Source of the DNA: a virus
Direction: 5' to 3' (one strand)
Virus record (IMG/VR): IMGVR_UViG_3300005265_000063
Span: 1 to 32,421 of that record
DNA length: 32,421 nucleotides
Numbering within the stretch: position 1 is the stretch's first letter; each line of letters opens with the position of its first letter. Below, piece after piece: positions 5,375-27,462 of this stretch. The notes under the pieces were generated by a model that was not told the DNA's origin, did no database searches, and was given only the letters and a program-made list of their open reading frames with translations. Both the position numbers and the translations under genes were made by a program.

Positions 5375-5406
5375 GGCTTATCACCTCCTTTCAATTTGAG
5401 TCAACT

Positions 5407-5693: not shown

Positions 5694-5813
5694 AAGAATT
5701 TTGTTAGACAGAGGATAGCCATAAGTGACCTCCTCTCTGGTACCGGTGGGTGTGGCGTCTGCCGGCACCTAACCAGCCAGGCGGGCACTACCGTCCACCC
5801 ACCGGATTCTTCC

Positions 5814-6113: not shown

Positions 6114-6115
6114 CG

Positions 6116-6319: not shown

Positions 6320-6447
6320 CTTGACCTCCTTTTGATTTTCACAAAGATAACTGAATACCCTGCAGCGTCAACCAGAGACCAGGGTACTGGAGGCTTAATA
6401 TAAAACGCATGATAAGGTTTGGGACGATAGAGCAAAATTCTCACCAT
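6316..6447 (-). CDS. small hypothetical protein, first gene of the early run (43 aa)
   Basis: 43 aa, below a 60-codon cutoff, starting MVRILLYRPKPYHAFYIKPP. A GGAGG site lies 6 nt upstream, and the stop overlaps the next ATG as ATGA, the coupling seen throughout this genome. The C-terminus is basic (KIKRRSR). It is the first supported gene after the terminator near 6.66 kb, so it probably opens the main transcript. Confidence 0.6.
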   Translation of the reverse strand: MVRILLYRPKPYHAFYIKPPVPWSLVDAAGYSVIFVKIKRRSR

Positions 6448-6640
6448 AGCAGCCTCCTTTCAGTTAGATTTCACGACCAGAACAACTTTTGGTTCAGTTC
6501 TATGACCAAATAGCGGGTTTAGACCCAAACCAATGGAAAATTGAGTTAAGACTTCGGTAGCCAAAGTGTAGGGAGGACGGAGGAGGGTGGTGGGTGGGAA
6601 TGAAACACATCTGCTTATGAAGAATTCATAAGGAGATGTG
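6448..6640 (-). promoter_or_regulatory. intergenic region upstream of the main operon
   Basis: This gap separates a strong terminator from the first early gene, so the main minus-strand promoter should lie here. I see no convincing -35/-10 pair. It contains one copy of a three-copy 19-bp element (6491-6523), the short palindrome GGGTTTAGACCC (6516-6527), a four-tract G-rich run on the plus strand (about 6570-6598), and a near-duplicate of the 3' end of the following gene at 6466-6487. Confidence 0.4.
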
Positions 6641-6643
6641 TGA

Positions 6644-6690
6644 CCTTATTTAAAAAGGCCAAAAAAAAAAGAATTTTTTTGGGCCTGCCC
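6644..6690 (-). terminator. Rho-independent terminator after the 6710-7447 gene
   Basis: Read on the minus strand, a 7-bp stem with a UUCG tetraloop closed by C-G (CTGCC-TTCG-GGCAG core) is followed by a second hairpin, GGCC plus seven A pairing with seven T plus GGCC, and then TTTTT. It begins about 20 nt after the stop of the 6710-7447 gene and should insulate that gene from the early operon. Confidence 0.7.
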
Positions 6691-6709
6691 GAAGGCAGAC
6701 CCGAAAGGC

Positions 6710-7447
6710 TTAGAAGAAGCGAAGCTGCCTCTGAGAGCGAGGCTTGAACCAAGCCCTCAAAACGGCAACTCTGAGAAGCCAAATATAAATAAACTCTTGA
6801 GTTCGAGAACGAGACTTTTGAGCAGGAAGACGAGCTGGTAAACTGCCGAGCTTGTGCCACCCGAATGGAGAGCCGACTGTAACTTTAACTTCCTCAGCTT
6901 CAATGCAACCATCAGGATCAACACTTGCAACAGGCTCAACTGAACTGGTGGCTTCAACCAACCCAATTTCGGTAGCAAGTTGCTGGAAGTAATTGAGAGC
7001 TCTGGAGACTCCTCTCTTCCTTATCCACCTACAAAACGTGACAACCATTTCGTAGGTAGAATCCAGAATTGCGAAATAATCAGCGAGGTAAACAGCTGCC
7101 CTTAATGAGCAGCCGGCTAACCGAGCAACAAACTCAGGTCGCAGGTAAGAAACGCAGCTGTCAGCGCTCTTTCGGAGATGAGGGACTAAGAAGCTGCCAT
7201 CAGGAGCTTGAGAACCTTCTTCAAAAATCATTCTATCAAAATCGTGCAGCTTTGGAGGCCTAAAGGCGTCAGGAGACCATTGGAAAGCCTCCTGAAGAGA
7301 ATCAAACCCAGGACGAGAAAACAACCCAGCTTCCCAACCATCAGATGGAACTACGGAACCAGGATGATGTGAACACACTGCCTCACTGCCGCCGTTAGCG
7401 GAGTGAGCGAAACCTTTACTTTGCCTTAGATTTTCTTGGTTTTTCAT
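6710..7447 (-). CDS. hypothetical protein with unusual composition
   Basis: 245 aa, not recognised. It has a GGAGGTG site 4 nt before its ATG and a strong terminator right after its stop, which supports expression. Residues about 100-165 look like a real helical domain (RPEFVARLAGCSLRAAVYLA, then a helix with CRWIRKRG). The C-terminal 50 residues are basic and low in acidic residues. Compared with other genes here it is rich in Ser, Arg, Phe and Leu and poor in Lys, because the coding strand is pyrimidine-rich. A 31-bp inverted copy of its translation start lies at 7879-7909. It could be a recently acquired gene, or a fortuitous frame opposite a plus-strand RNA. Confidence 0.5.
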   Translation of the reverse strand: MKNQENLRQSKGFAHSANGGSEAVCSHHPGSVVPSDGWEAGLFSRPGFDSLQEAFQWSPDAFRPPKLHDFDRMIFEEGSQAPDGSFLVPHLRKSADSCVSYLRPEFVARLAGCSLRAAVYLADYFAILDSTYEMVVTFCRWIRKRGVSRALNYFQQLATEIGLVEATSSVEPVASVDPDGCIEAEEVKVTVGSPFGWHKLGSLPARLPAQKSRSRTQEFIYIWLLRVAVLRAWFKPRSQRQLRFF

Positions 7448-7468
7448 CTGGCACCTCCTAAAAGTTTT
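7438..7468 (-). repeat. 31-bp inverted repeat, left arm (start region of the 6710-7447 gene)
   Basis: Perfect inverted copy of 7879-7909. It contains the ribosome-binding site, the ATG and the first three to four codons of the gene starting at 7447. Weaker similarity continues for about 18 nt into the coding region. Confidence 0.9.
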
Positions 7469-7666
7469 TCACCCTCACTAGACAGAGCAAGCCGAATGAC
7501 AACCAAATCCTGGGCAGAGGGCGTGAGGAGGGCAGGGATAGAGTTAGGTGGACTAATTAAGGCAAGGGCAATTGACTGGTTGGCATGAGGCTTGTCCCCG
7601 CTTAGAAGGCGTTAGAAGGTGGTTGAGAAATGTAACCACTTTTATGACCTTAGAATTGGAATTTTT

Positions 7667-7703
7667 GAATACAAACCTGGGATTTGGTCATCAACCTAAA
7701 CCA
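7667..7703 (+). repeat. three-copy element, copy B
   Basis: Contains AAACCTGGGATTTGGTCAT followed by AAC and AACC spaced as in the copies at 24934-24969 (same strand) and 6491-6523 (opposite strand). The 19-bp core differs at three or four positions from the others. Confidence 0.65.
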
Positions 7704-7718
7704 CAGAAGCGACGAAGC

Positions 7719-7748
7719 CGACAGGGAAACTGGCGACAGGGAAACTGC
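7719..7748 (+). repeat. 15-bp tandem repeat, pair 1
   Basis: Two adjacent copies of CGACAGGGAAACTG followed by G or C. The core GGAAACTG resembles the GGCAAACTG of the second pair about 35 bp further on. Iteron-like in layout. Confidence 0.85.
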
Positions 7749-7780
7749 TTGGGAGGGGCCCTCTGGGAAGGAGACCAAGC

Positions 7781-7810
7781 AGGCAAACTGTCGGCAGGCA
7801 AACTGTCGGC
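7781..7810 (+). repeat. 15-bp tandem repeat, pair 2
   Basis: Two exact adjacent copies of AGGCAAACTGTCGGC. With pair 1 this gives four spaced copies of a G-G-A/C-A-A-A-C-T-G core within 92 bp, a typical layout for repeated protein-binding sites. Confidence 0.85.
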
Positions 7811-7878
7811 GAAGGCGAAAAGTGATGACACATTCCTCAAGCAGCTTCTTAGGCCTTCTTAGCGGGTGCTTTGTTTCG

Positions 7879-7909
7879 AAAACTTTTAGGAGGTGCCAGA
7901 TGAAAAACC
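7879..7909 (+). repeat. 31-bp inverted repeat, right arm
   Basis: Perfect inverted copy of 7438-7468. It places a GGAGGTG site and an ATG on the plus strand at 7900, but this frame stops after seven codons (MKNLRKS). It is either a duplicated gene start or an arm of an invertible or structured segment. Confidence 0.9.
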
Positions 7910-8014
7910 TTAGAAAATCTTAGGCAAAAGGAGCGAACGGAGCGGCCACACGGAGGCGGCAGCAGGAGGGGTAAGGCGGTGGGGGGAGGTGAACATCCAA
8001 CCTGATTTAATCAA

Positions 8015-14480: not shown

Positions 14481-15419
14481 TTAAGCAAGCACATCAATGA
14501 TCAGGTAACCGGCATCAGCGCAAACCAGCTTCTCAGTCCGAATGGACTCCTGTACCCGAATCACATCAGATTTTCTAGACCGGTCTTCATAGGTCTCAAC
14601 GATTGTGCCCTGGGCCTGGAATGCATAGGCAAAAGACAGGGTGCGGAGAGCAGGTCTTGGATTGATATGGCCAACCCAGACATAATCACTCCAGACTCGG
14701 CTAATGGACTCGGAGGCACCTAGCATGGCTGTGTTCTGCCTTGCACCAGGAAAGTAGGCATTGAGGCCCCAAAGCCGTACTGGGAATCCATCCTCAGTTA
14801 ACTGCCTGCTATCTGGCTCCTTCATCAGGGAACGAATTGCAGGGTGCCGGCGAATAGTGCGCCATACGTTTACAGGAATGATTATGGAGTTTGGCTCAAC
14901 TCCGTCTAGTGCCACCTGCTCTCTAGCAGTCTCCACATCGGCCTCAGGATCGGAGTTGACAAAATCCGACCACTGGCTGGTGCCTGAGAGGGTGGTTTTG
15001 TGGCTGGATGAGTAGTTGTCAGCGTCTGTGAACAAATCGGCTACCCGTTTCTCCTTATTGAGCAGCAAAATCTCAAGGAGAATCTCCTGAGTAGTCCTGG
15101 CCAGATCAAGGTACTTCCGAAACTTCTTGAACTCACGCCAGTCAATTGGTTTCTCCAAGGTGTGCTCTTCGCAGTGGTAGGTGTCAACTTCCAGCGACCA
15201 GTCTACCTGAGTTGCCCTGGCTCCATAGGCCCGGCGGTCATCATAAGCGCCCTGGAGATTGGCCTTGGTGAACTTGAAATAAGCCCCATCCTCATTCTCC
15301 TCACCCACTTCCACGATTGGGCAGATTTTGTCTGCTACTAGGCCCGTTTGTGGATAGGCCAAGGAGAGTTTAGTTAAGACCGGGTGAATCTTTGCCTCAT
15401 CAGATTTTGCTATAAACAT
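14481..15419 (-). CDS. major capsid protein
   Basis: 312 aa. The order protease/scaffold, cement protein, this gene is the standard head cassette. The N-terminal region (HPVLTKLSLAYPQTGLVADK, ICPIVEV, then YFKFTKANLQGAYDDRRAYG) and the end (PALRTLSFAYAFQAQG, VIRVQESIRTEKLVCADAGY) match the HK97-fold capsid group in which an E-loop precedes a long spine helix (here about residues 100-130). GGAGG lies 5 nt before the ATG. Confidence 0.8.
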   Translation of the reverse strand: MFIAKSDEAKIHPVLTKLSLAYPQTGLVADKICPIVEVGEENEDGAYFKFTKANLQGAYDDRRAYGARATQVDWSLEVDTYHCEEHTLEKPIDWREFKKFRKYLDLARTTQEILLEILLLNKEKRVADLFTDADNYSSSHKTTLSGTSQWSDFVNSDPEADVETAREQVALDGVEPNSIIIPVNVWRTIRRHPAIRSLMKEPDSRQLTEDGFPVRLWGLNAYFPGARQNTAMLGASESISRVWSDYVWVGHINPRPALRTLSFAYAFQAQGTIVETYEDRSRKSDVIRVQESIRTEKLVCADAGYLIIDVLA

Positions 15420-15429
15420 TCTCTCCTCC

Positions 15430-15852
15430 TTATGACCAAGCTGGGTGTTGAATTCTTCTCACAATGAGTGCCTTGAAATACTCACCATCCGCTGCAGCCT
15501 CTAGCGCCTCACATGCAATCATCTTGCCATCGGCTAGGGACGTTAGCTTTTTCATGTTGCCATTTTTCTCCTCAGTTGCGTTGTAAATACACTGACAAAG
15601 GTCACCACGAGAGATGCTGCCCTGAGCACGAACCCAGGAAACTCCAGCAATTCTCACCCGAACTGCCTCACCATCATCCGCATCCATTTGCGCTACGCCC
15701 ACGATTACGGTTCCAGCAGAATCACCGCTTTCTAATGGCTTGACCTGATTATCTGCTGTGCCTGCCTTAACACCCATGTATTTCTTGATGTCGCCCTCAG
15801 CAATAAAGGTTGCGTCAATGCCCGTTAATTCAATTGCCGGTGTTAGTGCCAT
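15430..15852 (-). CDS. capsid cement/decoration protein (DUF2190-like)
   Basis: 140 aa. All-beta: YMGVKAGTADNQVKPLESGD, a G-x-A-Q-M-D turn, VRVRIAGVSWVRAQGSISRG, and a final KALIVRRI. This is the pattern of DUF2190 head-decoration proteins, encoded between the protease and the capsid gene as here. Translation is coupled to the protease gene (TGATG) with its own GGAGG site 6 nt upstream. Confidence 0.75.
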   Translation of the reverse strand: MALTPAIELTGIDATFIAEGDIKKYMGVKAGTADNQVKPLESGDSAGTVIVGVAQMDADDGEAVRVRIAGVSWVRAQGSISRGDLCQCIYNATEEKNGNMKKLTSLADGKMIACEALEAAADGEYFKALIVRRIQHPAWS

Positions 15853-16412
15853 CACTTACCTCCTTTTTGAAGATAAAGTTCCTTAAATGCCTGTTCATAG
15901 GAAATTTTCTTCTCCTCAGCGTACTTCATGATCTTGCGGTCAAGTTCAAACGCTTCTGGGTCTACATCCTTTGGCACTTCAGGCAAATCATCTTCCTTCA
16001 GCCTTCCAAGTGGAACCACCAATTTGCCTTCCTGTGCAGCCTTGGCGATGTTCATCATCACCTCGGTGAACTTCTCATACGGAGTTTTCTCCTCCTCCTC
16101 AGAGAACTTAACCGGTTTCTGCCAATCAAGCAGCACTAGCAAGTCCTTAAGACCACCTTCATCAATGATGGCAGCTGAAAAACCAGTCTCACTTTTAAGC
16201 CTTTCACAGAAGTAGTCTATGTCCTTCAAGTGGGCCGCACGCTTCTCTGCTTCACGCTCTTTCCTAAGGCGTTCGGTCTCCTCCCTGAGCTTTTTGATCT
16301 CCTCATCCCGTTTCTTAAGCTCCTCAGCAAACTCAATTTTGCCCTCAGGTTTTCCATCGTCTTTCTGTTTTTGCTCATCCCTTACATCCTTCTTCGCATC
16401 TTTGTCTTCCAT
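15852..16412 (-). CDS. internal-start scaffold protein (nested in the protease gene)
   Basis: 186 aa. Within the protease-scaffold gene an ATG at 16412 is preceded by GGAGG with 7 nt spacing, as strong as any site in this genome. It would release the scaffold domain alone: an acidic-basic coiled coil (KKRDEEIKKLREETERLRK) and the C-terminal helical part. In phage Mu the scaffold gpZ is made the same way from inside the protease gene, so the arrangement is credible. Confidence 0.65.
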   Translation of the reverse strand: MEDKDAKKDVRDEQKQKDDGKPEGKIEFAEELKKRDEEIKKLREETERLRKEREAEKRAAHLKDIDYFCERLKSETGFSAAIIDEGGLKDLLVLLDWQKPVKFSEEEEKTPYEKFTEVMMNIAKAAQEGKLVVPLGRLKEDDLPEVPKDVDPEAFELDRKIMKYAEEKKISYEQAFKELYLQKGGK

Positions 16413-17129
16413 CCTTATTCCTCCTATCCACAAGGATTCCTGCCCAGTGTCATCATACCTCGCTAAGACCTCCCGTAGGGATTTGATGCGAGGAATGTCT
16501 GCACCAAGCAGGGCTATTCTCCTTAACACCTTGCCCAAGTTCTTGCCCTCGTGCATAAAGGCTGGATAAATCTCAGCGGAGATGTATTTGTAGGCCTTCT
16601 TCTTAATGGCCTCGGCTACCAGGCGTGGGACATCAGCAATATCTGCAATGAGTTTTTTGCCTTTGCGCTTAAGGGACTCAACCCAGCCCGCTGCCGGAAG
16701 TCCAGCCTTCTTGAGCAAGTCCTGTTCCTCACCATGACCAAGGGCAACTAGTGGCGGGTCAACAACTCGGCTATTGAAGTTTTTGATTATCTCATCCAGG
16801 TCTTTCTCTGTCCAGTCCTTGGTTGCATCTTGGCCAATCTCAAAAATCTCAACATCGGTGATCCTCTCCAGTTCAGCAAACTCATCAAAGTGCGTTAGAA
16901 ACAAAGGACATCCATTCTTCAAGGCGTGGGGACAGCAGTAGGCAGCAGAGATGTCTGTTAAGTCATCTGATACTGGACACTCTGGTGCGTGCTCACACAG
17001 ACTTTTTGGCCAGGGAAATTCAGGATAAAGCTCGGTTTCTGGAATGGGATATGGATAGAATTTTTCACCTTCCCTGAAAAAGAGTGGCCCCTTTTCCTTG
17101 ATGATAAACGGAAATCTTCGCTCCCTCAT
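15852..17129 (-). CDS. prohead protease-scaffold protein (Mu gpI-like)
   Basis: 425 aa. Residues about 92-200 carry the Mu-type protease pattern: D-V-E-I-F-E-I-G, W-T-E-K-D-L-D-E-I-I-K-N-F, P-P-L-V-A-L-G-H, A-A-G-W-V-E-S-L and YKYISAEIYP. The C-terminal 180 residues begin with a long charged coiled coil (about 250-300) typical of internal scaffolds. A leading segment with five cysteines (C45, C51, C65, C66, C74) is not usual for the family and might bind metal. The start at 17129 overlaps the upstream stop as TGATG. A second in-frame start at 16412 probably makes free scaffold. Confidence 0.8.
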   Translation of the reverse strand: MRERRFPFIIKEKGPLFFREGEKFYPYPIPETELYPEFPWPKSLCEHAPECPVSDDLTDISAAYCCPHALKNGCPLFLTHFDEFAELERITDVEIFEIGQDATKDWTEKDLDEIIKNFNSRVVDPPLVALGHGEEQDLLKKAGLPAAGWVESLKRKGKKLIADIADVPRLVAEAIKKKAYKYISAEIYPAFMHEGKNLGKVLRRIALLGADIPRIKSLREVLARYDDTGQESLWIGGIRMEDKDAKKDVRDEQKQKDDGKPEGKIEFAEELKKRDEEIKKLREETERLRKEREAEKRAAHLKDIDYFCERLKSETGFSAAIIDEGGLKDLLVLLDWQKPVKFSEEEEKTPYEKFTEVMMNIAKAAQEGKLVVPLGRLKEDDLPEVPKDVDPEAFELDRKIMKYAEEKKISYEQAFKELYLQKGGK

Positions 17130-17347
17130 CAGTACCACCCAACAGCAGGATTGAAATTGTCCCCTAAGGGCACGATGTTTTTGCTGTGAGCAACATTGCG
17201 TTCAGCATGTGCCCTTGGCTTTGGATACCGGGGAGGATACGGGTATCGATACGGGTAGCGATAGGGATACGGGTAAGGATACCTACGACGATAGGGCGGG
17301 TATGGATACGCCCGATACGGACTTTTCTGTGTTCGTTTTGCTGGCAT
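17129..17347 (-). CDS. Tyr-Pro-Arg repeat peptide
   Basis: 72 aa. After a basic start (MPAKRTQKSPYRAYPYPPYR) it is built from Y-P-Y-R/P units to about residue 44, then ends HAERNVAHSKNIVPLGDNFN. The DNA shows matching degenerate GGATAC/GGGTAT repeats (17222-17310). GGAGG precedes the ATG by 5 nt and the stop overlaps the protease start, so it is expressed. Such low-complexity, cationic, aromatic peptides can stick to DNA or membranes. Real function unknown. Confidence 0.55.
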   Translation of the reverse strand: MPAKRTQKSPYRAYPYPPYRRRYPYPYPYRYPYRYPYPPRYPKPRAHAERNVAHSKNIVPLGDNFNPAVGWY

Positions 17348-17433: not shown

Positions 17434-17862
17434 TTACAACTTGCCTCCTGGGCCAGCGCCTCGCTTCAAGATGAACAGTGGTGAACCCTTTTCCTCTCTC
17501 GTTAGCGTGTACAGGCCCTTGAGCGTTTTGCCTTTGAGCAAAAACTTCTTAAAGTCGGCTTGGTCTACATAAACCGTGACATCACCACTGTCCAGGAGCC
17601 GGTAGTATGACGGCGTATCCTTGGTTGGGTTCCAGAAGGCCGTCTCGTCTCCTGGCGCTAAGTAGCTCTTGTCCTCACCTGGCTTGCCCCGTTTGAGTGC
17701 ATCTTTATCTGGACAGGGCTGTTCATAAGCGGTGGTCTGCTTAACCCGCATAATGTCATGATCCAGGGCAAAGTGCATTAGACCGCCCTGAACCTTCTTG
17801 TCAAAGAAGAGGTGATAAACAACCCGGCTAGGCTGAACAGGGGATAGTAAACGCCCTTCCAT
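17434..17862 (-). CDS. phosphoesterase-like second frame, possible -1 frameshift product
   Basis: 142 aa if started at the ATG at 17862; the frame is open to a TTG at 17886. There is no ribosome-binding site at either. It overlaps the end of the preceding gene by 85-109 nt in the -1 frame. The end (VTVYVDQADFKKFLLKGKTL, KGLYTLTREEKGSPLFILK) resembles the closing strands of a LigD-type phosphoesterase domain. The likely readings are a -1 frameshift extension of the upstream gene, a separate coupled gene, or a sequencing error in one gene. Confidence 0.55.
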   Translation of the reverse strand: MEGRLLSPVQPSRVVYHLFFDKKVQGGLMHFALDHDIMRVKQTTAYEQPCPDKDALKRGKPGEDKSYLAPGDETAFWNPTKDTPSYYRLLDSGDVTVYVDQADFKKFLLKGKTLKGLYTLTREEKGSPLFILKRGAGPGGKL

Positions 17863-18932
17863 TTCATCATCAAATGACAGCGACAATGTTCACCACAGAG
17901 CGTATGCCCTGACCTTGGATAGCACGGCAACTCTGAGAGTTTGTAAGGACTGTGCCGTGTGAGCCAACGGCAGTTTGGGCAGGTCTTCTCATCTCCTCTG
18001 CAAACCCAGTAGTATTTCGCAAAATCGGCCGCAATAGACAGCGCCGGGTAGTGGCTGCTTACCTCCTCAATTACCCTGGTCATCACTCCAGCATTGGGCG
18101 TGGGCAAGGCCTGCATATACTCCTCAGGTTCGGAAGCCTTGTGCATATCCTCCTGGGGTTCCAGAAACTTGATTGTGATGGTCTTGTTGGCAATGGCAGC
18201 AACCAGTTCATCCCTTAGCCGGTGAGCCTCTTTGCCTTTCTTCTTCCAGTACCGCAGCTTTGGCGGAATTTGTCTACGAATGTAGGCCGGTAGACATGAC
18301 TTGCCTTCGGGTGGGTACCATTTCTTCTCCACAGCCCGTTTGGTCAAGACATAGGGCATTGGGTCGCTAAAGAAGGACATCCACACGGTGAGACCTCGTC
18401 CAGTCTTTTCTGGCTCACCAGACTCCAGGCTCTTCTTCCTCCACACATTAGGTAGCTGGCGCACCACAATCCTGCCGGCCAAATTCTTGCCCCAAATCTG
18501 GTATTCGTGGAACGCCGGCTTTTGTGCCAAGAATTCCACCTGCCCTTTGTCCACGATGATCATTGCACCAGGCAGGTAACGGGTAGCACCAACGGTGCCG
18601 GGCGGAAACCATGCCTCCACATGTAGCCACTCGACTGGTTCTGGTGCCTTCTTCTCCGTGACAGTCTTGATGTGGGGATCCAGCAGCACATCAAAGGCCT
18701 TAGGCAACTGCTTTTCAATCATCTCCCTTGCCTCGGTCATGTTCTTGGGCACCTTGTCCAGGCGCTTGATCCAGTTCAGAGTCCAGCCGACTAATGTGTC
18801 CTTAGTGACCTGGAAGCGGAGATCACCGTGCACCGACTTGCCCCGAATATGGGCCTGCAGGACAAAGGCCCACTTCTTATTCTCATCGGGCAGATACATG
18901 TAAGGGTCAGCTGGCAACTCGTTAAACTGCAT
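17778..18932 (-). CDS. LigD 3'-phosphoesterase-like domain fused to MuF-type cysteine motif
   Basis: 384 aa. Residues 20-165 resemble the phosphoesterase module of bacterial LigD, which trims 3' ends before joining: WAFVLQAHIRGKSVHGDLRF has H28, H35 and D37 where LigD uses two histidines and an aspartate. HVEAWFPPGTVGATRYLPGA and a D-K-G strand follow. Residues 311-352 hold C-x6-C-x2-C, SPYKLSELP and C346-x3-C350-x-C352, the signature at the end of Mu gpF-like minor head proteins. Between them is a basic helical stretch. GAGGT lies 5 nt before the ATG. The MuF-like part suggests packaging with the head. Function as a DNA end processor is inference. Confidence 0.65.
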   Translation of the reverse strand: MQFNELPADPYMYLPDENKKWAFVLQAHIRGKSVHGDLRFQVTKDTLVGWTLNWIKRLDKVPKNMTEAREMIEKQLPKAFDVLLDPHIKTVTEKKAPEPVEWLHVEAWFPPGTVGATRYLPGAMIIVDKGQVEFLAQKPAFHEYQIWGKNLAGRIVVRQLPNVWRKKSLESGEPEKTGRGLTVWMSFFSDPMPYVLTKRAVEKKWYPPEGKSCLPAYIRRQIPPKLRYWKKKGKEAHRLRDELVAAIANKTITIKFLEPQEDMHKASEPEEYMQALPTPNAGVMTRVIEEVSSHYPALSIAADFAKYYWVCRGDEKTCPNCRWLTRHSPYKLSELPCYPRSGHTLCGEHCRCHLMMKWKGVYYPLFSLAGLFITSSLTRRFRAV

Positions 18933-19193
18933 TTAAGACCTCAGAATCTTATCCACCCGCTCCAAGATTAACCGGACATCTTCCCTGACTTGATCCCTTA
19001 CAGCACGGAAGTCCTCTCTTAGGGCACTTACCTCATTTCGTAGGCTTCTCATCTCGGCGGTGAAGACCTCCCGGTCAATCTTGCGCTTATCAACTTTGTC
19101 GATCTTTTGGTTAAGAAACCGAATAACGATGCCAAGAAACACGGCAGCAACTCCAATGGTTGCGCCAAACACTTCTGGAAGAACCGAGTGCAT
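18933..19193 (-). CDS. small membrane protein with coiled coil (holin-like candidate)
   Basis: 86 aa. One transmembrane segment at residues 5-26 (LPEVFGATIGVAAVFLGIVI), then a long charged coiled coil (KIDKVDKRKIDREVFTAEMR and a second heptad-rich stretch to the end). The second of two adjacent ATGs has the better spacing to GGAGG. N-terminal anchor plus soluble coiled coil fits a spanin, a holin partner or a membrane tether for the ligation-type neighbours. No family decides. Confidence 0.6.
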   Translation of the reverse strand: MHSVLPEVFGATIGVAAVFLGIVIRFLNQKIDKVDKRKIDREVFTAEMRSLRNEVSALREDFRAVRDQVREDVRLILERVDKILRS

Positions 19194-20344
19194 CATACCT
19201 CCATTTGAATGCTATCTGGAGCAATGAATGTCTGGATGCCTTTTGGGATTCGCACGACCACTGGTTCGGTATAGCGCTCAACCCACTTCACTCGATAGAG
19301 ATAAAGCGGCCAGGTCTCATCCCACCAACTCTTGCGCTCCTCGGTTGTGATGCAGTGGTTGTCAAACTCCTCCAGAAACCGCTCCTTATCAATCTCCTCT
19401 GGCCCACTTAGCATGATAACTCCGTAGCAGTAGTTGTCAGAGATTAAATACAGCGGCTCGCCTATGTGGCTGCTGAAATTGATACTCTTCACGATAGCCG
19501 TCTTTTCACCAGAATGAAGCAACAGGCCATGCGGTGGCACAAGATAAATGCCATAGTAGTCCTCAGCGGTCTTGATAATCTCCTTGCGCTTCCTATCCCA
19601 CTCAGCGATTTCCTCTTTTTTCTTCGGCGGCTCAGATTTCATAAGTGGCTTCGCCAGCCAGTAGAGTTCCCAGAATGAGGAACCATCTTTGCGCTCAGGA
19701 ATGACAAAGTAGACCGACCTTAGAGCATCCACTATTTTGGCAAAGTACTGCTTTACCTCATCCAAACTCCACTCGCCCCACTGTTTGCCCTCTTTAAGCC
19801 GAGGGTAAGCGCTGTTGGCTAGATACCTCAGATCGGCGATAAGTTGGCGCCAACGAGTAGCCGGGTTGGCTAAATCCTCATCCACGCCTTTGGTAATGAA
19901 CAGGTCTGGTTGCGTCTCTGCTGCCTTTTTGTAGACGTACAGGGACATATCATCATCCACCCGCCTTAGGCCTGGCAAAGTGGTGCCAGTGGCAAGAAGA
20001 TACTCTTTGAGACCACGCAAATCAATTGTGTAAGATGGAATGAGAAACCGAGTTAGACGTTTGCGTTTGAGGGCTGCTTCAAGACGCCTGCGAGAGGTAA
20101 TGACGAAATAGGTTGGCACCTTACGAATTGAGATAGTGTAATCTCCAATCTCTGCACGGGTCAGGTCGGCATCCTTCAGCAGATCAATGATTTCTTCCTC
20201 AATCTCATCAATGGTCTCCTCTATTTCCATTCGGCGGACTTTAGGGTGCCATTCCCTCAACTTGCGTTTCTGTTCTGTGAGTTCGTGCAACAACCGTTTG
20301 ACCCGTTTTGTGTCCAACTCAGAGAATGACGTTGTATCCATCAT
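19193..20344 (-). CDS. coiled-coil protein with PUA/ASCH-like C-terminal domain
   Basis: 383 aa. The first 110 residues are a charged helix followed by strands (EETIDEIEEEIIDLLKDADL, then a TISIRKVPTYFVI segment), slightly like phage Gp157-type proteins. The last 110 residues look like a PUA/ASCH beta-barrel: LLLHSGEKTAIVKS, HIGEPLYLISDNYCYGVIML, an H-C-I-T-T-E-E-R-K-S-W-W segment and VRIPKGIQTF. Such domains bind nucleic acid or modified nucleotides. It lies between the hydrolase and phosphoesterase genes, so a nucleic-acid guide role is plausible. GGAGG is 6 nt before the ATG. Confidence 0.55.
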   Translation of the reverse strand: MMDTTSFSELDTKRVKRLLHELTEQKRKLREWHPKVRRMEIEETIDEIEEEIIDLLKDADLTRAEIGDYTISIRKVPTYFVITSRRRLEAALKRKRLTRFLIPSYTIDLRGLKEYLLATGTTLPGLRRVDDDMSLYVYKKAAETQPDLFITKGVDEDLANPATRWRQLIADLRYLANSAYPRLKEGKQWGEWSLDEVKQYFAKIVDALRSVYFVIPERKDGSSFWELYWLAKPLMKSEPPKKKEEIAEWDRKRKEIIKTAEDYYGIYLVPPHGLLLHSGEKTAIVKSINFSSHIGEPLYLISDNYCYGVIMLSGPEEIDKERFLEEFDNHCITTEERKSWWDETWPLYLYRVKWVERYTEPVVVRIPKGIQTFIAPDSIQMEV

Positions 20345-21080
20345 AGGCTACCTCCACGTTTTTGTGGTACTCCCTTGCGGCTTCGGCAAGTTTTTCATCG
20401 CCCATCTTCAGTGGCTCAGTGCCAAGATGGGTAATGATAATCCTAAGTGACTCCTTAGCGTCCTTTGTCCAGTTTTTAAGTTGATCCACTAAGGACGCAT
20501 GCCCAATTGGGATTCCACCTTCCTTAGCCCGTCTCACTAATGGCTTGCTGAAGGATGACCCATCACAAATCCAGATGTCCAGGTCTTCAAAGAACTTCTT
20601 TCTGTCTCCGGTATGAAATCCGACAATATCAGTCGCAATTCCGACAAGAGCTCTTGCAGTTCCGACCTTGAACACCGACATTGGGCATTTGGTTGAGTGT
20701 AAGACTGGGAATGACCGGACACTGAAAGGGCCAATCTTGAGCTCCTCACCTGAGTACTTGAAGACTTCCCTCTCCACCGGGTACTTCTCCTTATCAAGGC
20801 GCTTGTGTGTTTCGGTTGACATAAACACCCGCCCCTTGACCTCGTTAATCTCCTGGCACACATGATCTGGATGGCAGTGTGAGATCAAGATGTCATTGCA
20901 CTCTGGTAAGGCGCCTCGATTTATCTCACCAAAATCGATGAGCACGGTATAACCATCTTGCCGCAGAAGAATAGCGGTGTGGTACCGATGCTGCTGGCTG
21001 TACTGCTCAATGTAGCCTCGAGTGCCCAAAAATGTTATGGAACACTCGGCGTAGCGCTGTGGCTCCTCAGGTAGAATCAT
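20319..21080 (-). CDS. metallo-beta-lactamase-fold hydrolase
   Basis: 253 aa. The metal motif H68-x-H70-x-D72-H73 is intact (ILISHCHPDHV), after the family's SITFLGTRG strand and a VLIDFGE loop. Further ligands are likely H in VLHSTKCP, D in GIATDIVGFHTGD and H in IIITHLGTEPL. The fold covers RNase Z, exonucleases and phosphodiesterases; there is no beta-CASP insertion evident. The ATG at 21080 overlaps the stop of the 50-aa gene as ATGA and follows GAGGG, which fixes the start. Placement between ligase and phosphoesterase genes favours a nucleic-acid substrate, by inference. Confidence 0.8.
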   Translation of the reverse strand: MILPEEPQRYAECSITFLGTRGYIEQYSQQHRYHTAILLRQDGYTVLIDFGEINRGALPECNDILISHCHPDHVCQEINEVKGRVFMSTETHKRLDKEKYPVEREVFKYSGEELKIGPFSVRSFPVLHSTKCPMSVFKVGTARALVGIATDIVGFHTGDRKKFFEDLDIWICDGSSFSKPLVRRAKEGGIPIGHASLVDQLKNWTKDAKESLRIIITHLGTEPLKMGDEKLAEAAREYHKNVEVAYDGYNVIL

Positions 21081-21229
21081 TTTCGCCCTCGACCAGTCTT
21101 TTGACATGGCACAATGCGCCACTTACCAAAACCAGTCTTACCGGTGGCTAAGAAGCAAGTCACCCTGCCGGTCTTGGGATTGGTCACTCTGTACACTCTG
21201 CCTGCTGTTGGATTCTTAGGAAGCGGCAT
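21077..21229 (-). CDS. small basic hypothetical protein (50 aa)
   Basis: 50 aa, beginning MPLPKNPTAGRVYRVTNPKT and ending KTGRGRK. It is strongly basic with a beta-hairpin-like pattern and two cysteines (C25, C42). GGAGGAG lies just before the ATG, and the stop is shared as ATGA with the start of the metallo-hydrolase. It overlaps the preceding gene by 46 nt. Short of the usual 60-codon cutoff, it is nevertheless well supported by both signals. It may bind DNA. Confidence 0.6.
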   Translation of the reverse strand: MPLPKNPTAGRVYRVTNPKTGRVTCFLATGKTGFGKWRIVPCQKTGRGRK

Positions 21230-21609: not shown

Positions 21610-23454
21610 CTAAACCTCCTTACTTGGGATTTCCTCACCACTTGCACCGGGCAAATAGTGCACCTTGCCGTCCTTGTCAATTATCTTGGCCTGGAAACAC
21701 CGTTTGGCAATGGCCCGTTTCTCAATGGCATCAATTGTGTCAACCGGCTTATCAGTCTTGCCCATAAACCTCGGTGCCCAGGCTGAGAAATCCCAGGCTT
21801 CTTCTCTCATGTCATAAATCACGTTGAAGGTTTCAGTTTCAATTACAATGTGGTCACCACGATGGCCCAACTCCTTCTCTGTGACCGCAAAAGTCTTGCC
21901 ACCGTAGGCCACTTCCATGCCATTGATTTTGCGAATAATTTTCTCTTTCACTCTCCGTTTGCCAGGTAAAATGGCCCACTTCAAATTGAACACACCCTTG
22001 GTCTTGGTCTCCACGGCCTCAAGCACAATGGCCACAAATTGCACGGAGTTATGGAACTTAATCCAGCTCTTAGGCCTCCTTCCCGTTAGGTCATAGGGTG
22101 CACTGGCCTGCTTGGCAACATTGCCCTCGGAACCTGGTAATTTGGCCAGCCGAATAGTTTCCTTCCTCAATTCCTCCCTTGTGCGGTTTAAATGATGTGG
22201 CAAAAGATTGAGCTTTAATTCTGTATCTGGAATCATCTCAGTGCGTTGAGGAAAGTTCATAGACTGTAACCGTTTCCAGCGCTCAGAGAATGGCAGTTTG
22301 TGAATATCACCTTCCTTGCCAAAATAGACCACATCAAACACTGAACCAATTAACGGGCTATCATCCACCTCCTTGGTGCGTAGGATGGATGCAGTGAACT
22401 CCCTTGGGAAGTGTTGGGATCCTCTCCAGGCCTCAATCTCCAAGTCAAGGCAGAACCGGTCAGGTCGCAGCCGTTTGAGTGCAGCGACAATGCTTGGAAC
22501 CTGCTTAGTAATCTCCTCACCATCCTCGGTGTAGATAATCACCTTGTTTCTGTCTCGCCAGGCAATGGCGTGGAAGCCATCAGCCTTCTTGGAGCTGTAA
22601 ACAGGGAACTGCTCATCATCCCAAAGGGAGATGAAGAAATCCAATGTCTGTGGCTGACCCGGCACGTAGCCTCTGCACGGCTTCTGTGGCAAGAAGAATT
22701 GGAAGAGGTGGATTTTGTCCTCCGTCATTGCCCGCCTTGCCTCCTCCTCAAGCCGCTGTGCGCCTTTCACCCGCAAACGAATTGCAAAGGAGAGCGGAGA
22801 GGAGGTGGCTCCGCTCTCCAGAAAGGAAGTGAAAAGGCCCTCTGCCATAGGGGTGACTTGGGCGTCGGGAATGCGCTCATATTTTAACCGATATAACGGC
22901 AGAAAGCTAGTGAATGGAGACCGGGCGCCTCGCTGTTCCCACAGGAAGTGAACTCGATCTGCCAATTCCCTTGGCAGCATCCTGTAAATGCGAAAATCGA
23001 TTATCCTTGCCATCTCCTCTGCATCAGGCAGCATGTGGAGGATGTCACAATCACCACGGGTCATACCTCGCTCCACTATGCCGCCTACTATCCAGGTTGT
23101 TGGAGTTGCAATCACAAAATCCTTAAGATGTGGCAAGAAGTCTGCCAGGGTAATTGGTGGGCCAATCTCCTTGCCTGAGCCTCGCACTGGTGCATAGGGA
23201 TAGCCAAACGTGACCTTTTCCGGTGTCTTAGGAATCACTTGAAGGAAGGCTGCAGCATCCTCATCCAGCGGAGTCTTGGCCTCCGGAAACTTTGCGCCCA
23301 ACTCAAGGAGCCTCCGTTTGATGAGGAGAAACTCATTGATCATCTGTTCATTTTGCTGGGTCGGGTGCTCTCGTTTCCAGGCCGCATACTCCTTGCGCAA
23401 TTTGGCTGCCCGGAGTTTGAGTCGTTCAATCTCCTTCATCTCCCCAAAGCCCAT
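21610..23454 (-). CDS. nucleotidyltransferase-like domain fused to ATP-dependent DNA ligase
   Basis: 614 aa. The C-terminal half is a DNA ligase: motif I K290-ADG (SSKKADGFHAIAW), a motif III-like LDLEIEAW at about 336-343, motif IV EGNVAK at 443-448, motif V SWIKFH near 463-468, then an OB-like domain opening FVAIVLEAVETKTKG. Residues about 120-140 (TTWIVGGIVERGMTRGDCDI) match the GG...GxTxGDxD signature of polymerase-beta-type nucleotidyltransferases; DCD supplies two acidic residues. A charged helix opens the protein. The start is uncertain (23454 or 23439). Lying directly after the portal genes, it probably seals genome ends late in infection or on entry. That role is inference. Confidence 0.8.
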   Translation of the reverse strand: MGFGEMKEIERLKLRAAKLRKEYAAWKREHPTQQNEQMINEFLLIKRRLLELGAKFPEAKTPLDEDAAAFLQVIPKTPEKVTFGYPYAPVRGSGKEIGPPITLADFLPHLKDFVIATPTTWIVGGIVERGMTRGDCDILHMLPDAEEMARIIDFRIYRMLPRELADRVHFLWEQRGARSPFTSFLPLYRLKYERIPDAQVTPMAEGLFTSFLESGATSSPLSFAIRLRVKGAQRLEEEARRAMTEDKIHLFQFFLPQKPCRGYVPGQPQTLDFFISLWDDEQFPVYSSKKADGFHAIAWRDRNKVIIYTEDGEEITKQVPSIVAALKRLRPDRFCLDLEIEAWRGSQHFPREFTASILRTKEVDDSPLIGSVFDVVYFGKEGDIHKLPFSERWKRLQSMNFPQRTEMIPDTELKLNLLPHHLNRTREELRKETIRLAKLPGSEGNVAKQASAPYDLTGRRPKSWIKFHNSVQFVAIVLEAVETKTKGVFNLKWAILPGKRRVKEKIIRKINGMEVAYGGKTFAVTEKELGHRGDHIVIETETFNVIYDMREEAWDFSAWAPRFMGKTDKPVDTIDAIEKRAIAKRCFQAKIIDKDGKVHYLPGASGEEIPSKEV

Positions 23455-23611
23455 GTGGCATAGGATCCTGGTCAAACACAATCTTAGCAACGCCGGAGAG
23501 TGGAATCAAGGTGCGCTTGCCCTCATTTATTGTGGTTACGAAGGTCTGGTCAATGAAGACATCGTTCTCCTCAAAATCCGTAATGTCACCATTGAGATAA
23601 CTTACTCGCAT
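23426..23611 (-). CDS. small hypothetical protein
   Basis: 61 aa with GGAGG 5 nt before the ATG. Beta-rich (MRVSYLNGDITDFEENDVFI, TLIPLSGVAKIVFDQ) with an acidic end. It follows the portal pieces immediately and overlaps the ligase start by 29 nt, so it probably couples ligase translation. Not recognised. Confidence 0.55.
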   Translation of the reverse strand: MRVSYLNGDITDFEENDVFIDQTFVTTINEGKRTLIPLSGVAKIVFDQDPMPHGLWGDEGD

Positions 23612-23620: not shown

Positions 23621-24277
23621 CTAACCTGTCGATGCAATAAAGCGAATGACCCGATTTGGAATGGCTTCAATGGACTCATAACTCGGCGACCTAGCTCGAT
23701 GAGTCATAACGAAGAAGCCATCCTTATCTCGGCCAATGCTTACGCCTCTAAACCGTCCACTTTTTCGTGGAAAGGTAATTTCTCCTATCTCAAGCTGTGT
23801 TGCCCGCTTGTCTACCATCTTGTATTTACCAAACCGTATCTCCTCAGCAAATGGTGCCCAAGATTCTAGATCAGCAAAGACCCGTCGTGGCCTGCCTCGT
23901 TTTTTCCTCTTCTTCCTCTCTTGCTCCTTCCATGGAAACCTCAGGAGAATTTGTGGATAGCGGTCAGTGACAAAGTTGAAGTCCACAATGCGTTTGACTA
24001 ACTGCTGCTGAAGGACATCGGCAATGGCAATGCCATCGGCCTCAACCCGCTCTTGCCGTACCTGGCTGTGTGCCCTGGAAAGGGCATAAGAACCACGCCG
24101 GCCTTCCTCCACGGTCTGAGTTGCGCCTAAGATGGCCTTGCTGATCTCTGCATTGCAGAAATCAATTAAATCACGGTAGGAGGCTGGTGCCGATCTTGAG
24201 GCCTCCAGAAGACTCACACTGAGATGATCCGGTATGGCTACGGCGGTTTCTTTTTGAATGGACTCTAAGATTTCCAA
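23621..24277 (-). CDS. portal protein, C-terminal part (DUF935-like)
   Basis: 218 aa from a TTG without a ribosome-binding site. It matches the second half of Mu gp29-like portals: ESIQKETAVAIPDHLSVSLL, YRDLIDFCNAEISKAILGAT and a V-D-F-N-F-V-T-D-R-YP segment that lines up with the C-terminal wing. It overlaps the first portal frame by 13 nt in another frame, so expression would need frameshifting, coupling or correction of an error. The joining region lacks the NPYG-containing stretch expected between the halves. Confidence 0.65.
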   Translation of the reverse strand: MEILESIQKETAVAIPDHLSVSLLEASRSAPASYRDLIDFCNAEISKAILGATQTVEEGRRGSYALSRAHSQVRQERVEADGIAIADVLQQQLVKRIVDFNFVTDRYPQILLRFPWKEQERKKRKKRGRPRRVFADLESWAPFAEEIRFGKYKMVDKRATQLEIGEITFPRKSGRFRGVSIGRDKDGFFVMTHRARSPSYESIEAIPNRVIRFIASTG

Positions 24278-24894
24278 CAGGGCATCTTGTTCTGTGCATC
24301 GTAGGCGTAGTGGATTACCTTAGTCCATGGCACCTTTTTCAATGACACGCCTGCCTCTTTGAAGAAGATCTCACTTTCGGTGATGCCGTGGAACCGTTTG
24401 TCCTTAAACGCCCAATACTTTTGAGGATGGAAGACCAGCTCCTCAATGCCCCACTTGCCCTTGTATGGCCCAGTCTTAATTTCCTTCCACACAATTTCCA
24501 GGACGGCAAAGCCCTTGCCGACAGCATCCATCAACTGGAAAATGTCCTCACTGAAGATGCCCTTAGCATCATCAATGACGGTGAGGACAAAATCGGCAAT
24601 GTCCTTGTCCCTTTGCCTGTCACTGGCTGGCACTATCTCCCAGGGAATGCGGCTTACGGCTAGTTTCCTTGTTTGGTAAACGGAGTAAAGATGAGCATCC
24701 TTGGCCTCCATCTCATCGTAAATCTTAACGCCCTTCTTGCGCAGAACCTCATCGGGATTCTCATCAGCAACGCCAAGGATACTGCGAAAGCTCTTCTCTT
24801 CAACCTTCAGCCCTTGGAGTGGTGGCCGCTTAGCCTCCTGGTCTGCTCGTTTCTCTTCCGTGAAGAAATTTTTGATTCGTTCCCAAAGTTTCAT
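24265..24894 (-). CDS. portal protein, N-terminal part (DUF935-like)
   Basis: 209 aa. Opening KLWERIKNFF, then LYSVYQTRKLAVSRIPWEIV, a D-A-V-G-K-G-F-A-V-L-E-I-V-W segment, and FHPQKYWAFKDKRF: the order of Mu gp29-like (DUF935) portals through which DNA is packaged. The frame stops at 24265 after KVIHYAYDAQNKMP. Together the two frames give about 425 residues against roughly 500 for the family, and about 60-70 residues of the central region are absent. The ribosome site is weak, and a copy of the three-copy element lies directly upstream. Confidence 0.7.
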   Translation of the reverse strand: MKLWERIKNFFTEEKRADQEAKRPPLQGLKVEEKSFRSILGVADENPDEVLRKKGVKIYDEMEAKDAHLYSVYQTRKLAVSRIPWEIVPASDRQRDKDIADFVLTVIDDAKGIFSEDIFQLMDAVGKGFAVLEIVWKEIKTGPYKGKWGIEELVFHPQKYWAFKDKRFHGITESEIFFKEAGVSLKKVPWTKVIHYAYDAQNKMPCWKS

Positions 24895-24933
24895 TTTAGC
24901 TACCAACCTTTGCCCTGTTAAATCTCAAATCTT

Positions 24934-24970: not shown

Positions 24971-26419
24971 TTAGTAATCCGAAAGCTCACGATAAGTCAC
25001 CCGCTTTCTGCCCGACGTTACTCCAGAGACAAAGTTGGCTGGTGTTCTCAGTAGAGCATGTAGTGCCAGGGCAGTGGCTACAAGGAAGTCATCGGAGGCG
25101 CCTTCTTCATCCGGCTTGTGCACCTTGAGCAAATCGCCTTTAACCTCCTGTTCCGCTTCCAAAAATTCCCTTTCAAATGTCAAGGCCTCTGGAGAATGAT
25201 CCTGAAAATAAATGAATCTGCCTCCATCAATTTCGGTTTTGAGATTGGTGAACACTCGATCCTTGGTTGTCGGGCATGTATAAATGCCTTCTACTCGATT
25301 TTTCCCCAACAGCGTTCTCAATTTTTCTGTGTTAGGATCGCCAGCGGCATTGGTTTCTGAGACAATCCTAACAAGGCCCTTTGCAATGTACTTTTGCAGA
25401 AATGGAATGAGGTAGGCAAATTGTTCATTGTAATCACCGCTAAGGGAAAGCAGATCCACAACCTTGGCCCTGTCGTCCTCTCTGGCAAGAATTACTACAG
25501 CCGTCTTGCTGCTTGCCTTGCCCCAGTCAATGCCAGCAAAGAGAGGGCCAGAAAATGTGCCACGAGTGCCTTTGCGCAGGCTAAGGAAATGATTGGCATC
25601 TACAAAGTGGCTAGCCATTAAGTGCCATTCCAGGAGGTAATTCATGCGAAAGTACGGGTTCTCCTCACCACCGGGCAGTCGTTTAATCTCGCCCTCCACA
25701 AATTTTCTGTATGTCTCTGAGTACTTTGCAGCCTCATGCCACGGTACAGCTTGGTGCAGCTCCCTGTTTTCTCTCAAATTGTACTCGATTTCATTTAAGA
25801 ATGCACAACGCTTTCTGCCAGGCGTACCAGAGTTGATAATCAACCCACCGGCATCGGCCACCATGGGCCTAAGGATTTTGTAGTAAGAGAACGATGAAAC
25901 CAATTGCGCCTCTTCCACGATGAGCAGCGATGCATCTGGGCCTTCATTACTCGCTGTCTCCGAACCAGAGAAGGCCTGCGCTAAGGAGAAATTGGAAAGC
26001 TCAAAAACCTCGGAATTGGATGCCTCAACCCTTAGGCCTAACTCCTCCAGGGCATCGTGAAATCGTCTAGTTCTGGCCTGGCGTCTTAGGCGTTTAAAGG
26101 GCAGGGCTGCAGTGTATCCTTTGGGCCCAGCTATGGCCACCGTGAATCCATCCCGATACTTCTTAAGCGCTGGGAAGTCATAAACCACATTGGTCTTGGC
26201 CAATTCTGGCAACAAGGCCATGAGGCTTAGCGTTAGGGCCTTAAGCGTCTCGGTTTTCCCGGTCTTCCTAGCCCACAGATTTGTAAATGTGCCAACCTCC
26301 TGAGTAAGCACCGCTGCAAGGAATTGAGCCACCCGCCTTTGTTGGTATGGCCGAAACCGAAAGCCATTAATCTTCTCAGAAAACGCAATTATCTTCTCAA
26401 TGAGAGCGTTTAGCGTCAC
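24971..26419 (-). CDS. terL: terminase large subunit
   Basis: 482 aa. The ATPase has a Walker A at W49-ARKTGKT-T56 and a Walker B at LLIVEEAQ (164-171), with a coupling SGTP at 198-200. The nuclease has D298 in FAGIDWGKASSKTA, E355 in IVSETN and D443/D444 in SDDFLVATALALHA. A GTG start at 26419 has GGAGG 6 nt upstream; a longer frame would overlap the small subunit by over 100 nt. It translocates DNA through the portal, in concert with the small subunit encoded just upstream (23-nt overlap). Confidence 0.9.
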   Translation of the reverse strand: MTLNALIEKIIAFSEKINGFRFRPYQQRRVAQFLAAVLTQEVGTFTNLWARKTGKTETLKALTLSLMALLPELAKTNVVYDFPALKKYRDGFTVAIAGPKGYTAALPFKRLRRQARTRRFHDALEELGLRVEASNSEVFELSNFSLAQAFSGSETASNEGPDASLLIVEEAQLVSSFSYYKILRPMVADAGGLIINSGTPGRKRCAFLNEIEYNLRENRELHQAVPWHEAAKYSETYRKFVEGEIKRLPGGEENPYFRMNYLLEWHLMASHFVDANHFLSLRKGTRGTFSGPLFAGIDWGKASSKTAVVILAREDDRAKVVDLLSLSGDYNEQFAYLIPFLQKYIAKGLVRIVSETNAAGDPNTEKLRTLLGKNRVEGIYTCPTTKDRVFTNLKTEIDGGRFIYFQDHSPEALTFEREFLEAEQEVKGDLLKVHKPDEEGASDDFLVATALALHALLRTPANFVSGVTSGRKRVTYRELSDY

Positions 26420-26789
26420 GAAGAACCTCCAGGACTCTGGTCTCTGTGTCCTTACGGTCTGGAATCTGCTTATGTTTTGGTGCCAATATCTGGATGAACC
26501 GGAAGGCAATTTCTAAGGCCTTAACTGCACCTTCTGCATGCTTAAACTCGGTCTTGGATAGGGCATCTAAGGCACGCCTCTGTACCTTACGCCAAATCCT
26601 GAGATTTTCTCTTCGCAGTTTCTCAGGGAGAGCAACTTCACCTTCCTTAAGGCCTAGACCATATTTTCTACGCCACTCGGAGATTGTAGCTGGCCTAGGA
26701 ATCCCCAACATCCTGGCTACTTCTGGATTGCTGTAACCTTGCCTTAGCAGTTCATCTGCCTTCTCAATTACCTCTCGTGGGTATGGCAT
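26397..26789 (-). CDS. terS: terminase small subunit (helix-turn-helix)
   Basis: 130 aa. Residues 8-40 form a clear helix-turn-helix (KADELLRQGYSNPEVARMLG, then ATISEWRRKYG), the DNA-recognition part of small terminases. The remainder is helical and would oligomerise. GGAGG is 5 nt before the ATG. The order small subunit-large subunit-portal is standard. Confidence 0.75.
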   Translation of the reverse strand: MPYPREVIEKADELLRQGYSNPEVARMLGIPRPATISEWRRKYGLGLKEGEVALPEKLRRENLRIWRKVQRRALDALSKTEFKHAEGAVKALEIAFRFIQILAPKHKQIPDRKDTETRVLEVLRDAKRSH

Positions 26790-27086
26790 CTAAGCCTCCA
26801 CAATTACCTTGGGATCTATGCCTTGAAGACTCCTTCCTGGCTTGAATTTCACCTTGACTCGCTCTGGCACTCTCAGTGGTTTGCCGGTTCTTGGATCCAT
26901 GCCTTCGTGCGGTGGAATCCTAGTGGGAACAAAGGTGCCAAAGCCAGCAATCCTCACCTTCTTACCAGCTCGGAGCTCGGCAATGATCTTGTCCACAAAG
27001 ATTGAGACAATTCGGTCGGCTGAGTTCTTGCTAATGGCAAAGAATGAAACGTATTTGACTAGGTCACTCTTGTTGACTGCTTCCAT
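26790..27086 (-). CDS. HU/IHF-type DNA-bending protein
   Basis: 98 aa, start at 27086 with GGAGG 5 nt upstream. The HU core is intact: NKSDLVKYVS, IIAELRAGKKVRIAGFGTFV, then the beta arm with R-T-G-K-P-L-R-V-P-E and VKFKPGRSL. It bends DNA, and next to the terminase genes it may help packaging or genome compaction. It is a bacterial-type protein, which argues for a bacterial host. Confidence 0.9.
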   Translation of the reverse strand: MEAVNKSDLVKYVSFFAISKNSADRIVSIFVDKIIAELRAGKKVRIAGFGTFVPTRIPPHEGMDPRTGKPLRVPERVKVKFKPGRSLQGIDPKVIVEA

Positions 27087-27462
27087 CTTTTCCTCCTTTA
27101 TCATAATCTTCAAAATCTTGCAAGTCAAATTCCTTAATGCGTGGTGCCCAGACCAGAAGTTTGCCACCACGTTTCTTTTTAACCTTCCTCCAGCCAATGA
27201 GTAGTAGCCTGCCACCACAACGCAACCACTCATAGGCCAGGGAATTGCTCAAGATGTTCTTCTCATGTTCTGCAAAGTTTTGGCCACAGGACTGCACCGC
27301 TACAATGCCATTTTCAGCCATGCAGAGAATATCCATAAAGTGGAAGGCATCAATTCGTTTGCCATAGGGGCCAGCATAAGGATTAAATCGTTCAACAATG
27401 TCACAAATCCAGCCCTGGTTTCTCAAATGCCTAAGAGTTCGTTGTGTTGGTGTTAAGCTCAT
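27064..27462 (-). CDS. conserved phage protein, possible PD-(D/E)XK-like nuclease
   Basis: 132 aa. SLTPTQRTLRHLRNQGWICD, IVERFNPYAGPYGKRIDAFH, FMDILCM and IVAVQSCG form the D...(x)-Q-x-K-like strand pattern of compact restriction-endonuclease-fold proteins, and WLRCGGRLLLIGWRK follows. I recognise the family as common in phages but not its function. GAGAGG lies upstream of the ATG at 27462 with 8-9 nt spacing. It is the first protein gene after the tRNA. Confidence 0.5.
   Translation of the reverse strand: MSLTPTQRTLRHLRNQGWICDIVERFNPYAGPYGKRIDAFHFMDILCMAENGIVAVQSCGQNFAEHEKNILSNSLAYEWLRCGGRLLLIGWRKVKKKRGGKLLVWAPRIKEFDLQDFEDYDKGGKDGSSQQE

Follow-up and report, generated by a model that had tools for sequence, protein, structure and literature searches.

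A predicted LigD-type phosphoesterase fold with a putative MuF-type Zn-ribbon tail in a proposed repair cassette of a viral head operon

Why should a virus encode, between its portal and its head protease, a protein that resembles a DNA end-processing enzyme? The question is raised by an open reading frame (17778..18932, minus strand, ATG start) in a window of 32,421 bases, which is the whole of the linear IMG/VR record IMGVR_UViG_3300005265_000063. Its 384-residue product has an N-terminal LigD-phosphoesterase-like domain (PE1) and a C-terminal MuF-type Zn-ribbon; the plus strand is closed over the same interval. An initial annotation had read the protein as a LigD-type phosphoesterase joined to the end of a Mu gpF-like head protein. 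The residues behind that reading are all found as placed, on the minus strand, namely H28, H35, D37, C318, C321, C346, C350 and C352, together with the segment PPGTVGATRYLPG at residues 110-122 and SPYKLSELP at 328-336. The pattern is more than a chance resemblance because H28, H35, D37 and R39 are conserved, the LigD phosphoesterase profile and structure are matched, and the ribbon matches the head family phrog_595.

The phosphoesterase domain

The window protein gave no match to Pfam LigD_N (PF13298), and neither a PDB sequence search nor PF13298 returned anything with the window protein or with a first three-sequence profile. The link between PE1 and LigD was obtained through wider relatives, profile-profile alignment and structure rather than by direct searches. 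PF13298 directly matched 4 of the 29 viral relatives, and one phosphoesterase copy in locus L008, a sister domain, matched PDB entry 3p4h (E 2e-10). HHalign of the viral family profile with 30 archaeal LigD phosphoesterases gave a probability of 97.3 and an E value of 1.7e-11, so that profile comparison, negative on the window protein itself, was positive by way of the family. An AlphaFold2 model of the 384-residue protein had a mean pLDDT of 77.5, with values mostly above 90 in the phosphoesterase core (residues 20-192; 18357..18875, minus strand). The PE1 model matched 3p43 with a Foldseek E value of 3.5e-7 and a VIA-align Z score of 13.3 (123 aligned residues, rmsd 2.0), and 3p4h likewise with Z 13.3. 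With four further LigD phosphoesterase entries, six were matched at Z 9.6-13.3, and the next structure, an unrelated fold, scored 2.6. HHalign, Foldseek and VIA-align together firmly support the fold that had been proposed from sequence. Of the two domains foreseen for a predicted structure, the model contains the phosphoesterase core; ahead of the ribbon it has only helices at residues 284-302, with low pLDDT.

LigD depends on His42, His48 and Asp50 for manganese; two further residues, His84 and Tyr88, are essential as well (PMC8656161). The metal motif of PE1, H28-x6-H35-x-D37-x-R39 (18816..18851, minus strand), is equivalent to LigD H42/H48/D50/R52 by the residue roles given there, and it is strongly conserved among the viral homologues (H28 in 27/29; H35, D37 and R39 each in 29/29). 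The position of LigD His84, E98 in the window protein, is Q in 18, E in 9, H in 1 and I in 1 of the 29 viral homologues, and H in 30/30 archaeal LigD proteins. The position of Tyr88, W102 in the window protein, is W in every viral homologue and Y in all 30 archaeal LigD proteins. Three other residues, S33, E143 and R154, are near-invariant within the viral clade. In a tree whose cellular rows came from one archaeal genome's phylum, a branch with 100/100 support separated all the viral phosphoesterases from the archaeal LigD phosphoesterases, and no cellular-type LigD phosphoesterase was found in 50,697 phages. Since His84 and Tyr88 are replaced in essentially all viral relatives, the viral domain forms a distinct sister clade. 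These data suggest that PE1, by its modelled fold, is a divergent sister of the LigD 3'-phosphoesterase; with E98 and W102 in place of LigD H84 and Y88, it may have an altered phosphoesterase activity or none.

The ribbon tail and the proposed repair cassette in the head operon

The C-terminal part of the protein carries a Cys/His pattern predicted to form a Zn-ribbon, WVC-x3-D-x3-C-x2-C ... SPYKLSELP ... CGEHCRC (residues 302-356; 17865..18029, minus strand). The ribbon alone matched phrog_595 with an E value of 5.6e-5 and aligned to the end of the MuF profile PF04233 at 13 bits (E 0.18), below the Pfam cut-off of 29.6; no MuF match above the cut-off was found in the window. Compared by HHalign, the ribbon and nearby full-length MuF proteins matched weakly (probability 9-10, with a shuffle maximum of 1.2). 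A search of 50,697 phages with the ribbon gave weak matches only (best E 0.2), several of them on head-operon genes. Two of these weak matches show the same kind of pattern, WV-x3-D-x3-C-x2-C: psiM2 ORF11, whose gene is flanked by those for the portal and an XkdF protease, and a vir249 protein annotated 'head morphogenesis protein', encoded between portal and prohead protease. Judged by sequence, the tail is the putative C-terminal Zn-ribbon of MuF-type head proteins and only that. The MuF link made by the initial annotation stands for these roughly 55 residues and does not extend to the full domain, and because a full MuF domain is not recognizable we do not class the protein as MuF. Among relatives, L004 has PE1 followed by a similar ribbon type, the gene adjoining the ligase/phosphoesterase gene of the archaeal virus ANMV-1 ends in a MuF-type ribbon, the closest relative, L001, is without a ribbon, and L012, L060, L062 and L066 each have a separate MuF in addition to a giant protein.

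The gene lies in a head operon transcribed on the minus strand in the order terminase subunits, Mu-type portal, repair cassette, Mu-I-like protease, small head protein and major head protein. A terminase small-subunit-like HTH protein (26397..26789; PF06056) and the terminase large subunit (24971..26509) are followed by the portal (23621..24906), which a frameshift divides into two open reading frames, 24265-24906 and 23621-24277. The portal of L001 is intact, at 394 residues, and the split in the window points to a sequencing error or a defective virus. Beyond the cassette come the Mu-I-like head maturation protease (15852..17138; phrog_976, E 1.1e-39), a small head protein (15430..15855; phrog_673, annotated as head scaffolding) and the major head protein (14481..15419; phrog_1005, E 3.6e-61), all on the minus strand. 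Compared with the Mu reference order, the gene for the 384-residue protein is placed between portal and head protease, the slot normally held by MuF. Elsewhere in the window, an HU-like gene (26790-27233; PF00216) and an SSB-like gene (5027-5374) have a bacterial look and hint at a bacterial host, at odds with the nearest named relative, an archaeal virus.

The gene belongs to a wider repair cassette, which recurs in other viruses and which the initial annotation had overlooked. A 626-residue protein (21610..23490, minus strand) combines a pol-beta-type NTase-like N-terminal part with an ATP-dependent DNA ligase core (PF01068, E 6.9e-14); the NTase motif GG...GDCDI has apparently lost its third acidic residue, and the ligase motif reads K302ADGFH. 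It is followed by a metallo-beta-lactamase-fold (MBL) hydrolase with the motif HCHPDH (20319..21122, minus strand), a domain that in L015 and L017 is fused into giant proteins with other cassette parts. A 383-residue protein (19193..20344, minus strand) has an N-terminal part that is Gam-like on sequence evidence and an ASCH-fold C-terminal domain. Comparison of the Gam-like part with phrog_253 gave E values of 0.0081 in the window, 0.021 in L001 and 7.7e-6 in the L004 homologue; HHalign with Gam gave E 0.0014 at a probability of 18. The model of this protein has an ASCH fold (Z about 12), Gam was absent among the structural matches listed for it, which were taken up by ASCH folds, and a wider sequence search returned nothing beyond one known relative. 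A second, degenerate phosphoesterase-like module, PE2, is encoded by a 150-residue open reading frame (17434..17886, minus strand) that overlaps the 3' end of the 384-residue frame in another frame; PE2 modules are without the histidines, and in ANMV-1 and L006 PE2 and PE1 are in one chain with NTase and ligase. The overlap of 17778-17886, about 109 bases, follows 'KWKG' near a C run and may reflect a frameshift, two coupled genes or an overlapping gene start. Neither Ku (PF02735) nor the LigD polymerase domain (PF21686) was found in the window and nine related records, some of which are fragments. The cassette therefore does not reproduce the Ku/LigD pathway.

Related proteins in other viruses

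The relatives comprise 29 proteins from about 30 other virus loci, drawn from IMG/VR with three in genome contigs. In most of them the same phosphoesterase domain is embedded in a multi-domain protein of 500-1,900 residues. A DNA ligase is present in 23 of the 29, an XkdF prohead protease in 18, a uracil-DNA glycosylase (UDG) in 12, a methyltransferase in 8 and a pyrimidine-dimer glycosylase (Pyr_excise) in 3. Upstream of these genes lie portal, terminase and head-morphogenesis families, with 19 of the upstream genes forming one portal cluster, and downstream lie major head families, 24 of the 29 loci falling in one linked capsid-protein cluster. The C-terminal regions of L009, L050 and L051 resembled head proteases by eye only and had no PHROGs support; they were left out of the counts.

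Several of these loci carry additional features. In L009, a giant of 1,574 residues (3230-7954) carries, beside ligase and phosphoesterase, a DUF6884 and a radical-SAM region of RaSEA-like (archaeosine) type (TIGR01210, E 1.9e-37), which hints at DNA base modification within a ligase/phosphoesterase protein; the 1,719-residue giant of L050 (2531-7690) is similar by eye. L004 (4790-7981) encodes a 1,063-residue protein with a Gam-like part, a NADAR N-glycosidase domain (TIGR02464, above the cut-off), a DprA-like part and an ASCH-like C terminus. Some of the giant proteins (for example those of L012, L053 and L064) have K-x-N-G as ligase motif I in place of K-x-D-G, and in L001 (6940-8008) HNH-like and VRR-NUC-like open reading frames, recognized by eye, are inserted directly ahead of the phosphoesterase gene.

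Enzyme-protease fusions also occur in cultured phages. Rhizobium phages encode proteins annotated 'DNA methyltransferase/prohead protease', as in RHph_TM16 (MN988459, 92359-92685), where a DNA methyltransferase is fused to an XkdF prohead protease. In L054, the XkdF region at the C terminus gave matches to PHROGs annotated as DNA methyltransferase and RNA ligase (phrog_1530 and phrog_14859). Fusion of an enzyme to the head protease may be a general theme.

A proposed role and its place among known systems

The computed picture consists of PE1 with its LigD fold and Mn triad, the MuF-type ribbon, the NTase-ligase, MBL, Gam-like-ASCH and PE2 neighbors, and single-protein fusions that often end in a prohead protease. 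With a probability of about 0.5, the gene for the 384-residue protein is a component of a head-operon DNA-repair kit for the virus's own genome, a reading in which the protein would be loaded into the virion and PE1 would be active. The ribbon, or the fused protease in the relatives, would direct the repair proteins to the inside of the procapsid; there the head protease would cleave them apart, after which they would either stay with the DNA in the particle or follow it into the cell. The phosphoesterase domain would clean blocked 3' ends, the NTase would possibly fill gaps, the ligase would seal nicks or breaks and, in the relatives, glycosylases would excise damaged bases, such that the viral genome could be mended as infection begins, independently of the host's repair systems. 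The end-processing cargo suggested by the initial annotation fits this context (the portal-protease slot, the ligase, NTase and Gam-like neighbors, and homologues fused to prohead proteases); its carriage in the virion we infer. MuF and polyvalent effectors and the methyltransferase-XkdF fusions of cultured phages would, by analogy, support a head-delivered cargo. Weighing against the repair kit are the substitutions at the LigD H84 and Y88 positions, the apparent loss of an acidic residue from the NTase motif of the window, the negative searches for Ku and the LigD polymerase domain in the window and nine related records, the ribbonless L001, and the separate MuF of L012, L060, L062 and L066. 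More tentatively, a self-processing polyprotein of NTase, DNA ligase, glycosylases, LigD-like phosphoesterase with a re-wired active site and prohead protease might be carried in the capsid, injected with the genome and used for repair on entry in many uncultured tailed viruses, archaeal (ANMV-1) and probably bacterial.

The replaced catalytic residues allow the phosphoesterase to be a DNA-end-binding or structural head module, leaving the ligase half as the sole enzyme. LigD requires His and Tyr (PMC8656161) at two sites where 27/29 viral homologues have Q or E (position 98) and 29/29 have W (position 102), and PE2 modules without histidines fit such a role as well; yet the near-invariant Mn triad and Arg, with the new S33, E143 and R154, argue for an active site that was kept and re-tuned, and we regard a non-catalytic domain as somewhat unlikely. 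The enzymes might alternatively serve the producing cell, with ligase and phosphoesterase repairing nicks and blocked ends of the concatemer late, before or during packaging, the fusions coupling only expression and location and nothing being carried over. The late-gene position beside terminase and portal suits this idea, and ligation would be useful for packaging intact DNA; but a plain early gene would be enough for such a task, and the repeated covalent fusion to a prohead protease (18/29 relatives) is better explained by capsid loading, which makes repair confined to the producing cell unlikely.

That the cargo is injected for counter-defence is improbable. The enzymes would then undo damage inflicted by host immunity (breaks, 3'-phosphate ends and deaminated bases) or, through MBL, NTase, ASCH and NADAR, eliminate nucleotide signals, rather than repair ageing damage. 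Polyvalent proteins have mostly been interpreted in this way (PMC5512222), and L004 has NADAR and DprA-like domains; general DNA damage nevertheless fits better with a recurrent core of ligase and phosphoesterase, accompanied by UDG and pyrimidine-dimer glycosylase families. It is highly improbable, and already largely refuted, that the fusion of PE1 to the ribbon arose through chimeric assembly or reflects gene decay. The frameshift between PE1-ribbon and PE2, and that in the portal, would fit an artefact, but L004 also has PE1 and then the same ribbon type, PE1 is intact and deeply conserved, and we rejected the artefact reading on the recurrence of the cassette across about 30 independent contigs.

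Discussion of head-carried phage proteins has centred mostly on toxins and counter-defence, and some giant viruses probably pack repair enzymes with their genome. If the head-operon repair kit is real, some tailed viruses would pack DNA ligase, phosphoesterase and glycosylases, fused to a head protease, with their genomes. That many uncultured viruses keep a DNA-repair gene set among, or fused to, their capsid-building genes suggests that they may have their own repair tools in the particle. The finding accounts for a set of 'ATP-dependent DNA ligase' annotations within viral head operons, and the clade, in which two catalytic residues of the LigD phosphoesterase are replaced, is useful for studying the mechanism of that enzyme. 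We found no description of viral LigD phosphoesterases or ligase-prohead-protease fusions in the open-access papers searched; a prior description elsewhere is possible.

The LigD 3'-phosphoesterase (PF13298; 3p43, 3p4h, 3n9b and 5dmp) shares with the viral domain its fold (Z 10.7-13.3), the equivalents of Gln40, His42, His48, Asp50 and Arg52, and a DNA ligase, which in the viruses is in the adjoining gene or, in relatives, fused. The viral domain differs in having Gln/Glu for His84 and Trp for Tyr88, extra insertions and a 100/100 clade of its own, and it is encoded in a viral head operon without a polymerase domain or Ku. Like the MuF/SPP1 gp7-type proteins (PF04233), the 384-residue protein has a C-terminal ribbon (W-V-x-D-x-C-x2-C ... 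C-R-C), occupies the portal-protease gene slot and follows the theme of extra domains on a head protein; unlike them, it has a recognizable match to the terminal ribbon only, below the Pfam cut-off, and the remainder is a phosphoesterase fold. Polyvalent and MuF proteins are considered head-delivered effectors. The polyvalent proteins of Iyer et al. 2017 (PMC5512222) likewise combine several domains in a large chain encoded next to packaging genes, and their predicted fate is to accompany the DNA into the host. Their cargo differs from the DNA-repair set found here, often fused to an XkdF protease; neither LigD phosphoesterase nor DNA ligases or DNA glycosylases are named as cargo in that paper.

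ANMV-1 AJP62006, an 866-residue 'ATP-dependent DNA ligase' adjoining the portal, has NTase, ligase, PE1 (42% identity over the phosphoesterase) and PE2, as in the window, but in a single fused gene whose ribbon partner is a Cys-rich 1,166-residue protein; the ANMV-1 paper leaves the ligase unmentioned and the phosphoesterase undescribed. In the mycobacteriophages Corndog and Omega (PMC4351075), as proposed here, NHEJ-type proteins act on viral DNA ends; there the phage contributes Ku and is believed to rely on the LigD of its host, whereas in the present case the virus itself encodes the LigD-like parts and searches of the window and nine related records for Ku were negative.
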